From NCBI RefSeq assembly GCF_002968335.2, contig NZ_CP134398.1, forward strand, positions 5,828,001 to 5,892,000: a DNA stretch of 64,000 nucleotides. Direction: 5' to 3'. Both the position numbers and the translations under genes were made by a program. The notes beneath the pieces are model-generated. The model did not search any database, was not told where the DNA came from, and saw nothing but the letters and a program-made list of their open reading frames with translations. This stretch comes from Mycobacterium sp. ITM-2016-00316 (lineage in GTDB: Bacteria > Actinomycetota > Actinomycetes > Mycobacteriales > Mycobacteriaceae). Shown here one piece after another: positions 57,475 to 64,000 of this stretch (the first letter of the stretch is position 1; each line of letters begins with the position of its first letter).

Positions 57475-58674
57475 TCACGAGTAGTCGGCAAAGTGGAAAT
57501 CATCGGCAATCTTTTGTGCGCGCTTCGCGGCGTTTGACCTGAATTGGCTTTGCACGGCACTGCTCGCCATGAGTCTCTGCGCCAGATGTGTGAGGTTGAT
57601 TCCACACCGGCTTGTCGGGTGCATCAGCCGTATGCGGCGTGGATTCAACGTGCTCTGCGACGCTTCGACATACGGGCGCACAAGCCTTTCATAGACGGCA
57701 AAAGCTTGCGAGTGATCGTCGCTCCGTTTGATCTCGCCGGCAAGCACATACGCCGCCACCAGCGCCAACGCCGTGCCTGCCCCCGTGAACGGCGTCGGGC
57801 AGAAAGCGGCATCGCCCAACAGCACAATCCGCCCCTGTGACCACGTGGACGCTTGCACTTGGCTCATCGGCCCAAAGTAGAAGTCGTCGACTGTGTGCAA
57901 ATTCGCGGTGATGCGATCAGCAATCGCGCCCCGGCCCTCAAGGGCTTGGCGCAGCAAGCCTTTTCGCGCTGCTGGCGTGTCCCCATTCATGCCGGGGTCT
58001 CGTCTGAGGAAAGTGACGAGGACAGTGGTCTCTGTCTCGTTGCCCGGCCGCAGGGTGATGAATGTTCCGCCAAAGCCGTTCACCGAATAAGCCCACCGAT
58101 CGTCCTCGACGCGTCGGGGGATCTTGAAGAACGCCATATAGGCGCCGAGGTAGCGGAAACGAGTTTGCCCGGCCATGACCATGTCTCGGGTCGAGGAATG
58201 GATGCCCTCGGCGCAAATGACCAGCTCAAAATCCTCGACCTCGCCATTGTCGAAGGTGACCGAGATGCCGTCCTGCTTCTCTTCGAGCGCGGTGATGAAC
58301 CTCCCGAAGCGGTATTCACAGTCGTCTTTTGTCGATTCGAAGAGCACCTGAGCGAAATCGCCTCGCAAGATCTCGAAATCATTCGTCAGCGATCCCAGCG
58401 CGCCTTTGGGCAGAACGGCGACCACACGCCCGGCGGCGTCGAGATACTTCTGGCCGCATTCCTGAGTGTTTTTGGCTTCGATCTTTTCGGCGAGTGACAT
58501 CATGTCGATGACGTGTTGACCTGCGCCCTTGATGTCGACGTTTTGACCGCCGTCCCGCAAAGCCGGTGCCTTTTCCACGATGACGGTGGAGTACCCGTAT
58601 TTGTGCAGCCAGTAGGCGCACGTGGGGCCGGCAACGCCGCTGCCGCACACCAGGATCTTCTTGGTTGATTGCAT
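57475..58674 (-). CDS. FAD-dependent monooxygenase (PHBH/TetX type)
   Basis: 399 residues from the ATG at MQSTKKIL. Rossmann FAD motif ILVCGSGVAGPTCAYWLHKYG; second motif FELVICAEGIHSSTRDMV; third motif RIVLLGDAAFCPTPFTGAGTALAL. This is the aromatic-hydroxylase fold that includes TetX and p-hydroxybenzoate hydroxylase. Codons use more A/T in third positions than the neighbours, a hint of transfer. It is downstream of and in the same direction as an AraC regulator. Substrate, possibly an aromatic or antibiotic-like compound, is unknown. Confidence 0.82.
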   Translation of the reverse strand: MQSTKKILVCGSGVAGPTCAYWLHKYGYSTVIVEKAPALRDGGQNVDIKGAGQHVIDMMSLAEKIEAKNTQECGQKYLDAAGRVVAVLPKGALGSLTNDFEILRGDFAQVLFESTKDDCEYRFGRFITALEEKQDGISVTFDNGEVEDFELVICAEGIHSSTRDMVMAGQTRFRYLGAYMAFFKIPRRVEDDRWAYSVNGFGGTFITLRPGNETETTVLVTFLRRDPGMNGDTPAARKGLLRQALEGRGAIADRITANLHTVDDFYFGPMSQVQASTWSQGRIVLLGDAAFCPTPFTGAGTALALVAAYVLAGEIKRSDDHSQAFAVYERLVRPYVEASQSTLNPRRIRLMHPTSRCGINLTHLAQRLMASSAVQSQFRSNAAKRAQKIADDFHFADYS

Positions 58675-58833
58675 ACATCCCCACCTCTTCCGGGTATCGA
58701 TCGAGATCAGGCGGCCAAGGCGCACCCCGTGTCGTGTGCCTCCACTGTCGGCTCTGCCGGCTGTGCCGCCAACCGGCAAATGGACATCTGATACCGGAAA
58801 GTCGCCAGATCGGGCGAGAGCCGAGAAGTGCCG

Positions 58834-61069: not shown

Positions 61070-61708
61070 TCACAGGGATAGCTGAAAGGCTCGCCGCAGA
61101 TCGGCAACAGCCCTATCGTCTCCTTCAAACCGCATGCGCTTGATCGCGGACCTACGTCGCGGCGCAGATGGCGCCAGCCGGGCCGTAATGAGGTCAGCCG
61201 CCGTCGCGGTCACGTCGACGTCGGGAGCACCGTCACCGCCGGCCAAACGCCCGTGGTCGACCAAAAATTCGAAGATGCGACCATCGATGTCCAGGCGATA
61301 CGAGGCGTGAAGGCCGCTGGCACCAGCCGAGTCGAACCCCAGGAGCAATCCAGTCAGGAATCCGGTCAACGGCGTCCACTCCGAGTCATCCCGATCGAAC
61401 TGATCCATCCCGAAGTCGGCGATGGCCTTCACCACGGGGACGACCTTGCGCCAGCCGAGGTCGCTGAGTGCGTAGACCGTCCGCGCGATCGGTGCCGGCA
61501 GATCGGCGCGGGAGACCAGACCGGCGTCCTCCAAGGCACGAAGCCTGTCCGCCAGTAAGTTTGTGGCGATTCCTGGCAGCTCGGAACGCAGATCACTGTA
61601 ACGACGCGCGCCGCCCATCAGCTCGCGCAGGATGAGCAGTGTCCATCGCTCGCCGAGGGTGTCCAAACCCAGTGCGACAGGGCAGTTCTGACGATAGGTC
61701 TTTGACAT
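61070..61708 (-). CDS. HxlR-family regulator with SCP2-like C-terminal domain
   Basis: 212 residues from the ATG at MSKTYRQNCPVAL. The winged helix has LGLDTLGERWTLLILRELMGGARRYSDLRSELPGIATNLLADRLRALEDAGLV; the family-typical Cys is present near the start. The C-terminal half (RLDIDGRIFEFLVDHGRLAGG; APDVDVTATAADLITARLAP) resembles an SCP2-like small-molecule domain. It is divergent from the Fe-S/SCP2 fusion gene, with tandem repeats in the gap. It resembles the frameshifted HxlR gene at 45.2 kb. Confidence 0.82.
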   Translation of the reverse strand: MSKTYRQNCPVALGLDTLGERWTLLILRELMGGARRYSDLRSELPGIATNLLADRLRALEDAGLVSRADLPAPIARTVYALSDLGWRKVVPVVKAIADFGMDQFDRDDSEWTPLTGFLTGLLLGFDSAGASGLHASYRLDIDGRIFEFLVDHGRLAGGDGAPDVDVTATAADLITARLAPSAPRRRSAIKRMRFEGDDRAVADLRRAFQLSL

Positions 61709-61778
61709 TGACACAGACCGATCATACGCGCGCCACCTCGTGGGCGTGAGTCGCATCCACCGAGTGATCAACACGTCT

Positions 61779-61802
61779 TTATAGACTTACTTATAAACTT
61801 AC
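61779..61802. promoter_or_regulatory. tandem 12-base direct repeat, probable HxlR site
   Basis: TTATAGACTTAC and TTATAAACTTAC lie head to tail, differing at one base, in the AT-rich 199-base gap between the divergent HxlR and Fe-S/SCP2 genes. The position and repetition suggest operator or promoter sites shared by both directions. Confidence 0.5.
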
Positions 61803-61907
61803 CACTTGAGTTTCTTGTCTAGTGAGTAGATCATCAGTATCGAAGTCGGGACTGAGCCTTGAGCGCTCCTGGTCCCGCAGCACGGGCATAGCGACGAAGG
61901 AGGCCTT

Positions 61908-63251
61908 GTGGCCAAACCGAACAAGCTCGAAGACCATCCGAATGTGATCGCGGTGCGGCAACGCGGTGACGAAGCCACTCCTGCTCAGCCGTTGGACGAG
62001 TCCTGGTTGCGTCAATTGGTTCTCGACGCGGGCGCCGACGATGTGGGGTTTGTCCACATCGACCGCCCCGAAATCGCCGACCAGAGGGCCGATCTCACGG
62101 CGGCGCTACCGGGTGTCAAGGTGCTGATCAGCTATGTGTGCCGGATGAACCGGGAGAACATTCGCACACCGGCCCGATCGGTGGCCAATCTGGAGTTTCA
62201 TCACACCGGTGACCATTCAGACGACGTCGGTCGCAGCGTGGCGGGCAAGCTGGAGGCGGCGGGTGTACGCGCGATCAACCCCTCCATGGGATTTCCCATG
62301 GAGATGAACAACTTTCCCCGCAAGACATGGGTGGTCAGCCACAAGCCGGTTGCGGTGGCTGCAGGTCTGGGCAAAATGGGCGTACACCGCAATGTCATCC
62401 ACCCGAAGTTCGGGAACTTCATCCTGCTCGGCACCGTGCTGATCGACGCGGAGGTCAGCGACTACTCCGAACCGATCAACTACAACCCGTGCCTGGAATG
62501 CAAACTCTGCGTCACCGCCTGCCCCACCGGGGCGATCGCCGCCGACGGACACTTCGACTTCTCCGCCTGCTACAGCCACAACTACCGCGAATTCATGGGC
62601 GGCTTCACCGACTTCATCGAGGACGTCGCCGACAGCAAGGACGCAGGCGACTTCCGTTCGAAAGTCACCGCAAACGAGTCGGCGTCCATGTGGCAAAGCT
62701 TGTCCTTCGGCGCCAATTACAAGGCGGCGTATTGCATGTCGGTGTGTCCCGCCGGCGAGGACGTGCTCGGGCCGTGGCTCGACGATCGCAAGAAGCACCT
62801 GACCGACGTGGTGCGTCCCCTGCAGGCAAAAGAGGAACCCGTGTACGTCATCGAGGGATCCGATGCCGAAGAGTTCGTGACGAGGCGCTATCCGCACAAA
62901 ACGGTACGACACGTCGGCCAGACCTTGCGGGCCACGAGCATCGATGGGCTGGTCGAAGGCCTGCCGATCATCTTCCAACGCGGGCAGGCCAAAGACGTCT
63001 CCGTGCTGTACCACTTCACTTTCACCGGATCCGAGCAGCGCAAGATCACCGTGACGATTCGCGACCGGAAACTCGACGTGGCCGAGGGACATCACGGCAA
63101 ACCCGATATCCATGTCACCGCCGACTCGGACACCTGGATCCGTTTCTTGAACAAGCAGGCCTCGATGCCATGGGCACTGGTGACTCGACGCATCAAGATC
63201 AAAGGGTCCCCGTTGCTTCTCCGCATTTTCGCGCGCTGCTTCCCCACCTAG
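61908..63251 (+). CDS. QueG/RdhA-like Fe-S protein fused to an SCP2 domain
   Basis: 447 residues. The central part resembles epoxyqueuosine reductase (QueG) and reductive dehalogenases: WVVSHKPVAVAAGLGKMGVHRN, then a first 4Fe-4S motif CLECKLCVTACPTGAI (Cys195, 198, 201, 205), ACYSHNYRE (Cys221, like the RCISY of QueG) and CMSVCPAGED (Cys276, 280). Two 4Fe-4S clusters are thus likely, and by homology a cobalamin site in the N-terminal domain; cobalamin binding cannot be confirmed by eye. Residues 350-447 form an SCP2 sterol-carrier domain (YHFTFTGSEQRKITVTIRDR; WIRFLNKQASMPWALVTRRI), an unusual partner. A PDR-type reductase follows directly. Reductive dehalogenation or another reduction is inferred. 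Confidence 0.75.
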   Translation: MAKPNKLEDHPNVIAVRQRGDEATPAQPLDESWLRQLVLDAGADDVGFVHIDRPEIADQRADLTAALPGVKVLISYVCRMNRENIRTPARSVANLEFHHTGDHSDDVGRSVAGKLEAAGVRAINPSMGFPMEMNNFPRKTWVVSHKPVAVAAGLGKMGVHRNVIHPKFGNFILLGTVLIDAEVSDYSEPINYNPCLECKLCVTACPTGAIAADGHFDFSACYSHNYREFMGGFTDFIEDVADSKDAGDFRSKVTANESASMWQSLSFGANYKAAYCMSVCPAGEDVLGPWLDDRKKHLTDVVRPLQAKEEPVYVIEGSDAEEFVTRRYPHKTVRHVGQTLRATSIDGLVEGLPIIFQRGQAKDVSVLYHFTFTGSEQRKITVTIRDRKLDVAEGHHGKPDIHVTADSDTWIRFLNKQASMPWALVTRRIKIKGSPLLLRIFARCFPT

Positions 63252-63294
63252 ACAAAGCCCTGAGCCGACCGCAAGCGAGGAGATACAGCGGGAC

Positions 63295-64000
63295 ATGAAC
63301 ATGTTCTTTGTCGACACCGAGCACGAACTCGTGCTGGAGAAGAAGTCCGTCGTCGCCGAGGACGTCGTAAGGCTCACATTGCGTGACCCGCTGGGACGGC
63401 CGGCCCCCAAATGGCACCCCGGCGCCCACATCGACCTGATGCTGGGCGACAACCTGGTCAGGCAGTACTCGCTATGTGGAGACCCCAGCGACCGGTCCAG
63501 CCTGCAGGTTTCGGTGCTGCGCGCACCAAACAGCCGTGGTGGATCACGGCATGTGCACGACGAACTGGTCGAAGGGCAGAAGATCCACATTCGCGGTCCG
63601 CGCAACAACTTCGAGCTCGTGCCGTCGAAGCGCTATCTCTTCATTGCCGATGGAATCGGTATCACCCCGATCCTGCCGATGGTGGCAGCCGCTCACGCGA
63701 AAGGTGCCGACTGGCGCCTGGTCTACGGGGGACGCACACGGACATCGATGGCGTTCCGCGATGAGCTGCAGAGCACCTACGGCAAGCGCGTGGAGATACG
63801 CCCGCAGGACGAGTACGGACACCTGGACCTGAAGTCACTGCTCGGCCGCCCGAAGCGGCGGACAGCGGTGTACTGCTGCGGTCCGGAGCCGTTGCTCGAC
63901 GCGGTCGAATCCGCCAGTGCACAGTGGCCGGAAGGAGCCCTACACCTGGAGCGGTTCGCACCGAGGAAGAGCGAGGGCACCGACGAAGACGCCGCGTTCG
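63295..64000 (+). CDS. PDR/VanB-type oxidoreductase, 5' part
   Basis: Open at the right edge; 235 residues are visible. The flavin domain has HIDLMLGDNLVRQYSLCGDP (RxYSLC), and the NAD domain has RYLFIADGIGITPILPMVAAA and AVYCCGPEPLLDAVE. This is the phthalate dioxygenase reductase (VanB) family: FMN/NAD domain, then a plant-type 2Fe-2S ferredoxin that would lie beyond the edge. It starts 43 bases after the Fe-S/SCP2 gene and would pass electrons from NAD(P)H to it. Confidence 0.85.
   Translation, partial: MNMFFVDTEHELVLEKKSVVAEDVVRLTLRDPLGRPAPKWHPGAHIDLMLGDNLVRQYSLCGDPSDRSSLQVSVLRAPNSRGGSRHVHDELVEGQKIHIRGPRNNFELVPSKRYLFIADGIGITPILPMVAAAHAKGADWRLVYGGRTRTSMAFRDELQSTYGKRVEIRPQDEYGHLDLKSLLGRPKRRTAVYCCGPEPLLDAVESASAQWPEGALHLERFAPRKSEGTDEDAAF

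Follow-up and report, generated by a model that had tools for sequence, protein, structure and literature searches.

An SCP2-bearing QueG/RdhA-like protein with seven cluster cysteines in a mycobacterial three-gene group

At the end of a 64,000-nucleotide (nt) stretch of DNA from Mycobacterium sp. ITM-2016-00316 (the window, taken from contig NZ_CP134398.1) lies a group of three genes: a divergent gene for an HxlR-type regulator, a gene for a 447-residue iron-sulfur protein, here called the enzyme, and a reductase gene that is cut by the window edge. On balance, the enzyme probably forms the catalytic component of a reductive system of the QueG/RdhA kind (class III cobalamin enzymes) that runs on NAD(P)H, and in which iron-sulfur clusters and a likely base-off cobalamin act on a hydrophobic substrate that is held by an SCP2 domain and sensed through the HxlR regulator. 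The most informative new fact is the conserved loss of one ligand from the proximal cluster.

The mechanism we consider most likely is the reduction of a hydrophobic molecule at the expense of NAD(P)H. Electrons from NAD(P)H would pass through the flavin and 2Fe-2S center of the adjoining reductase, which is of the phthalate dioxygenase reductase (PDR) type, to the distal [4Fe-4S] cluster (C195, C198, C201 and C280), from there to a proximal cluster with three cysteines (C205, C221 and C276) and then, most likely, to base-off cobalamin bound by the N-terminal module. The cobalt would reduce the hydrophobic molecule, taking an oxygen or a halogen from it if QueG and RdhA are a guide. The SCP2 domain would hold or deliver this molecule, and the HxlR regulator would sense it, or a relative of it, through an SCP2-like domain of its own. 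The cobalamin, the hydrophobic substrate, the type of reaction, the order of electron flow and the sensing of a ligand are the parts of this scheme that we infer.

Fold and cluster ligands of the enzyme

The fold, the domains, the number and places of the cysteines and the link to reductases were computed. Modeled by AlphaFold from 102 input sequences, SCP2-less and distant relatives included, the enzyme reaches a pLDDT of 90.4 (an earlier model from 34 close sequences, with a pLDDT of 61.9, was set aside as poor). The predicted structure and its fold matches uphold the QueG/RdhA fold proposed in an earlier reading of the window that was made from the letters alone (the sequence-only reading). 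The modules follow the order of the class III cobalamin enzyme superfamily of QueG and RdhA, a nitroreductase-type module and then a double-cluster ferredoxin module. The C-terminal SCP2 domain proposed for the same chain was also recovered, with both the gathering cut-off and the fold supporting membership (Pfam PF02036, residues 360-439, E 5.5e-8, 33.5 bits, cut-off 21.3). The double-cluster model Fer4_16 (Pfam) scores 29.6 at residues 195-281, slightly under its cut-off of 30. By sequence, the top match in the PDB is QueG 5d6s (E 1e-7, residues 145-226), followed by the NuoI-type ferredoxin chain 2fug_9 (1.5e-5) and QueG 5d08 (4.6e-5). The NCBIfam models for QueG (TIGR00276) and RdhA (TIGR02486) match residues 142-224 only (E 2.3e-16) and 142-225 only (E 2.8e-8), respectively, and both fall below their cut-offs, with 59.7 bits against 200 and 34 bits against 160.35.

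Relatives of the enzyme currently carry domain names or the name epoxyqueuosine reductase. We rejected the idea of a disguised QueG: the enzyme lies far under the TIGR00276 cut-off, and its host genomes mostly hold a separate QueG. Comparisons between loci were made on the best 80 of at least 578 relatives in genome contigs (22 actinobacterial, 58 others). When the QueG model was run on 32 host genomes drawn from those behind the 80 loci, all 32 gave matches at E<=1e-10, the family protein itself counted, and 23 held a QueG protein above the cut-off. The nine hosts without one are eight Actinomycetota and a member of the Pirellulaceae (genome G221, locus L071), so that a separate QueG is present in 23 of the 24 non-actinobacterial hosts. 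Another, unassigned branch is formed by QueG-like proteins of about 257 residues that have the full set of eight cysteines and lack SCP2 (L010:1513-2283 and P0241-P0360); some sources call them epoxyqueuosine reductase.

According to the report on Streptococcus thermophilus QueG (PMC4646009), the distal cluster is bound by C184, C187, C190 and C243 and the cluster near cobalamin by C194, C210, C236 and C239. The three motifs quoted in the sequence-only reading are located in the 447-residue open reading frame (CLECKLCVTACPTG at residues 195-208, ACYSHNYRE at 220-228 and CMSVCPAGED at 276-285). However, their arrangement is not the QueG/RdhA one that had been stated: neither the 80 loci nor the 54 family rows of alignment A2 (40 rows with SCP2 and 14 without, set beside 48 distant rows) have the fourth ligand of the cluster next to cobalamin. 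Aligned to QueG, the enzyme has C195, C198, C201 and C280 in the distal positions and C205, C221, A273 and C276 in the proximal ones, and thus holds seven of the eight cluster cysteines. Position 273 is Ala in 75 loci and Ser in 5, Ala in 51 and Ser in 3 of the family rows, and Cys in 47 of the 48 distant relatives. The other seven positions are Cys throughout the 80 loci, bar one Gly at C201. Moreover, exactly seven cysteines occur in 23 of the 80 cores (the first 335 residues), which leaves no spare cysteine in those cores.

Three residues past C221, H224 is a candidate replacement ligand for the missing cysteine: every one of the 80 loci and of the 54 family rows has His at this place, and 41 of the 48 distant rows carry V, N, A or I there, the four commonest letters. 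E96, H98, K146, H160, R161 and H165 are likewise invariant in the 80 loci, and a glycine-rich AGLGxxGxH segment is common to the enzyme and QueG.

A cobalamin-free reductase would account for the lost ligand in another way. The open iron of the three-cysteine cluster would bind and reduce the substrate, much as IspH or aconitase-type clusters do, and the old cobalamin module would now shape the substrate pocket. The replacement by Ala or Ser in every one of the 80 loci and in all 14 SCP2-less rows suits this proposal, as do the 23 cores with seven cysteines and the place of the lost ligand (QueG C236) in the cluster near cobalamin (PMC4646009). We nevertheless think it unlikely, since the AGLGxxGxH segment of QueG is retained, B12-binding proteins occur in 33 of 33 hosts, and H224 or another residue may stand in for the cysteine.

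Reductase partners and regulators

The downstream gene was correctly described as a PDR-type reductase. The phthalate dioxygenase reductase 2PIA matches it nearly end to end (residues 12-321, E 1.1e-59), and the C-terminal part of the 786-residue P450 chain 6KBH matches more closely still (E 7.9e-92). In the orthologue at L012, Fer2, NAD_binding_1 and FAD_binding_6 are above their Pfam cut-offs. The gene begins 44 nt after the enzyme gene and encodes 320 residues in full, ending at window-equivalent position 64257 (L004:6296-7258), 257 nt past the window end.

This pairing is widespread among the actinobacterial loci, where a PDR gene lies within 100 nt downstream in 13 of the 22 and at 1477 nt in one more (L023), while six have a ferredoxin-FNR fusion gene in its place, again within 100 nt. 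Both Nocardia loci lack either type downstream. In four of the 58 other loci, the enzyme and a C-terminal reductase form a single chain of about 820 residues (L034, labeled Acidobacteria; L041, L045 and L057, labeled Planctomycetota). The reductase part of L057 resembles GbcB (221 bits) and PRK10684 (Hcr; 209 bits), with both scores under the cut-offs. The link between reductase and iron-sulfur protein thus stands for 20 of the 22 actinobacterial loci, with two reductase types, and for the four fusions, but not for the remaining 54 of 58, which have neither a fused reductase nor a match to two reductase queries within 1600 nt downstream (some contigs end sooner). The sequence-only reading had named neighborhoods without such co-occurrence, together with the lack of a cobalamin-like pocket, as evidence against itself, and outside Actinomycetota the first half of this pair is what is mostly found. 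The exact trio is not kept there either, a MarR gene being the usual neighbor.

Taken together, three kinds of reductase, one of them fused, are the strongest evidence that the enzyme draws electrons from NAD(P)H in those loci that link it to such a partner. The arrangement parallels that of catabolic dehalogenases, some of which, according to PMC10463259, have a fused PDOR domain while others sit beside a ferredoxin oxidoreductase. A relative of the fused reductase module also sits in other long open reading frames of three Planctomycetota genomes (L163, L165 and L166), in L163 and L166 behind a low-complexity, apparently membrane-anchored N-terminus, and thus looks like a reusable module.

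A double-cluster ferredoxin module with adjoining or fused reductases might belong to an electron carrier without catalysis of its own, which would relay the electrons to a separate oxygenase or reductase acting on an SCP2-held lipid. The N-terminal module, however, is complete, about 60% identical across phyla and rich in invariant polar residues, beyond what a carrier needs, and no oxygenase recurs in the clustered neighborhoods, so far as the clusters were inspected. We therefore regard a mere carrier as quite improbable.

As for regulation, the SCP2-like domain that had been assigned to the divergent HxlR protein was supported by an hhalign comparison with the SCP2 domain of the enzyme (probability 97.9, E 6e-13, 102 columns) using a profile of 17 sequences. 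With a profile of seven the probability was only 53, and a Pfam SCP2 search of the C-terminal half of the regulator gave no match. Because this domain matches the SCP2 of the enzyme, the regulator may sense the enzyme's substrate. SCP2 domains bind hydrophobic molecules, and their presence on both proteins points to a substrate of this kind. An HxlR gene lies within 1100 nt upstream in 14 of the 22 actinobacterial loci; homologues are found in L011, L012, L019, L021, L027 and L029, and comparison with relatives places the likely true start of the window gene at the ATG codon of residue 23 (about 61708). Outside Actinomycetota, a MarR-type gene precedes the enzyme gene on the same strand, within 250 nt in 39 and within 1100 nt in 44 of the 58 loci, and one more (L083) has a divergent MarR-type gene; 3 of the 13 loci without MarR have less than 500 nt of upstream sequence. 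In four intergenic regions between the divergent genes, no convincing conserved operator palindrome was found.

Further HxlR-type genes were seen in passing. A second, convergent one follows the reductase gene (L004:7255-7725, window-equivalent 64254-64724), and its relatives (36-40% identical) lie upstream, on the strand of the enzyme gene, in several Streptomyces and Lentzea loci. L131 and L132 hold HxlR relatives of 337-339 residues with, by eye, two tandem SCP2-like domains.

Cobalamin, substrate and known relatives

Use of cobalamin by the enzyme is probable. CobS was found in 22 of 33 hosts and B12-binding domains in all of them, a capacity that is consistent with cobalamin but does not discriminate. 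It is highly improbable that the protein only handles cobalamin, reducing or trimming corrinoids in the manner of CblC or CblD without being directed at lipids.

Several observations weigh against an SCP2-assisted, cobalamin-dependent reductase of the QueG/RdhA kind. Judging from the alignments, the absence of a proximal-cluster ligand makes the redox chain different from that of QueG/RdhA. QueG D100-Y101-H102 and D130 have no clear counterparts, as the joint alignment puts other residues there; the invariant E96-F97-H98 may stand close to the place of D100-Y101-H102, the register being unsure. A search for CobS gave nothing in 11 of the 33 hosts, and no cobalamin riboswitch was found in the window or in the 19 loci searched (at gathering score, Rfam gave just one group-II intron across these 19 of the 80 loci and no element in the window). 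To these are added the 54 loci in which no reductase was found and the form without SCP2, which is the common one in the genus, so that the core does not need this domain.

The neighboring genes give few hints about the substrate. A same-strand alpha/beta-hydrolase gene lies within 1600 nt in five of the 22 actinobacterial loci (L018, L019, L021, L024 and L027) and three of the 58 others (L048, L057 and L085). On two Priestia plasmids the gene precedes an ABC permease, an SDR, a FabF-like synthase and a MaoC dehydratase. Three loci of SCP2-less mycobacterial relatives were read: ispE, an AMP-binding ligase, pth and rplY are near the gene in L091 and L092 and none of these in L093, and an ABC transporter pair is present in L091 only, its permease being no close relative of that in Priestia. 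This context is too thin for naming a substrate. For an anti-phage role, PADLOC gave no match to the enzyme or the reductase.

Two functions are described for the QueG/RdhA superfamily, the reduction of a tRNA epoxide and dehalogenation (PMC4646009, PMC10463259). The enzyme differs from QueG (TIGR00276; PDB 5d6s, 5d0a and 5t8y) in carrying SCP2 where QueG has a HEAT-repeat domain and in having seven rather than eight cluster cysteines, as well as in its family score. Unlike the catabolic dehalogenases NpRdhA, BhbA and JtRdhA, it has an SCP2 domain and lacks one proximal-cluster ligand; no catalytic Tyr was identified in it, and the RdhA score is low, as given above. The respiratory dehalogenase PceA, 16-22% identical in fold alignments, is without SCP2, and the partner of the enzyme in the window is a soluble PDR-type reductase. 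In contrast to SCP2/alkylsulfatase C-terminal domains, the SCP2 of the window sits behind a QueG-like core. A literature search that covered few subscription papers found none joining SCP2 with QueG or a reductive dehalogenase.

More tentatively, the family may be an undescribed QueG/RdhA branch that reduces apolar molecules with a three-cysteine cluster, whose open or differently ligated iron would lie next to cobalamin or act instead of it, and that combines SCP2 with interchangeable NAD(P)H reductases. The missing cluster anchor suggests unexplored reductive chemistry. If true, ordinary bacteria would hold in the three-cysteine branch a reductive enzyme for apolar molecules whose catalytic metal site is not known from the superfamily. 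The conserved loss of a ligand next to the cobalt gives a precise, testable prediction, and the natural one-chain fusion of enzyme and reductase could be assayed without a search for partners.

Distribution and features of the window

The branch was found in Actinomycetota, Planctomycetota, Acidobacteriota, Cyanobacteriota, Nitrospirota and Methylomirabilota, and in Bacillota on plasmids; relatives outside Actinomycetota are about 55-65% identical to the window protein. An even sample of the window's phylum gave matches at E<=1e-20 in 6 of 198 genomes, only the window's own genome matching through SCP2. The others were three SCP2-less proteins of the same genus, a 170-residue partial match and a distant one (28% identity). 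Within the genus, matches at E<=1e-40 occur in 86 of 198 genomes and only 3 matches extend through SCP2, so that the usual form there is SCP2-less. This form (L091:6048-7097, L092, L093 and most genus matches) has about 345 residues, is 56-63% identical and also lacks the eighth cysteine. In a Planctomycetota sample centered on a carrier genome, matches to the enzyme part of a fused query occur in 8 of 199 genomes, and 3 further genomes match the reductase part only.

A tree of 84 proteins places Actinomycetota in a single group (support 100/100). On well-supported branches, Planctomycetota and Acidobacteriota each require at least four changes; Cyanobacteriota require two, because of a bin labeled Gracilibacteria, and for Nitrospirota the tree is compatible with one origin. 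Three of 72,556 plasmid records carry the gene, one of them a conjugative Nostoc plasmid. Among 26 pattern matches in a search for viral carriage, none was a relative. The patchiness, the plasmids and the cross-phylum identity of about 60% fit horizontal transfer, mislabeled bins or paralogues also being possible and the tree giving no proof.

Table 1. Coordinates of the three-gene group and its parts in the window
Feature	Positions	Strand	Basis
HxlR-type winged-helix regulator	61070..61774	-	Pfam HxlR (PF01638), 72.2 bits, cut-off 20.8
SCP2-like C-terminal domain of HxlR regulator, about residues 126-234	61073..61399	-	hhalign
QueG/RdhA-like Fe-S protein with C-terminal SCP2, 447 residues, GTG start	61908..63251	+	domains, model, fold matches
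N-terminal module of cobalamin-binding type, about residues 26-190	61983..62477	+	
First cysteine motif: C195, C198, C201 (distal cluster) and C205 (proximal cluster)	62490..62525	+	alignment to QueG
C221, proximal-cluster ligand	62568..62570	+	alignment
Codon of A273 (gcg), place of QueG proximal-cluster ligand C236	62724..62726	+	codon read
C276 (proximal cluster) and C280 (distal cluster)	62733..62747	+	alignment
SCP2 domain, residues 343-447	62934..63248	+	
PDR-type reductase: flavin, NAD(P)H and C-terminal 2Fe-2S domains	63295..64000, cut by window end	+	

In genome G023, from the same class, the match to the enzyme is limited to about 170 residues within a 245-residue frame that is perhaps a fragment (L094:5888-6403). 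Elsewhere in the window, a gene on the minus strand (57475-58779) encodes an FAD monooxygenase that resembles the PRK07588 and tetracycline-destructase models, with scores well under both cut-offs.

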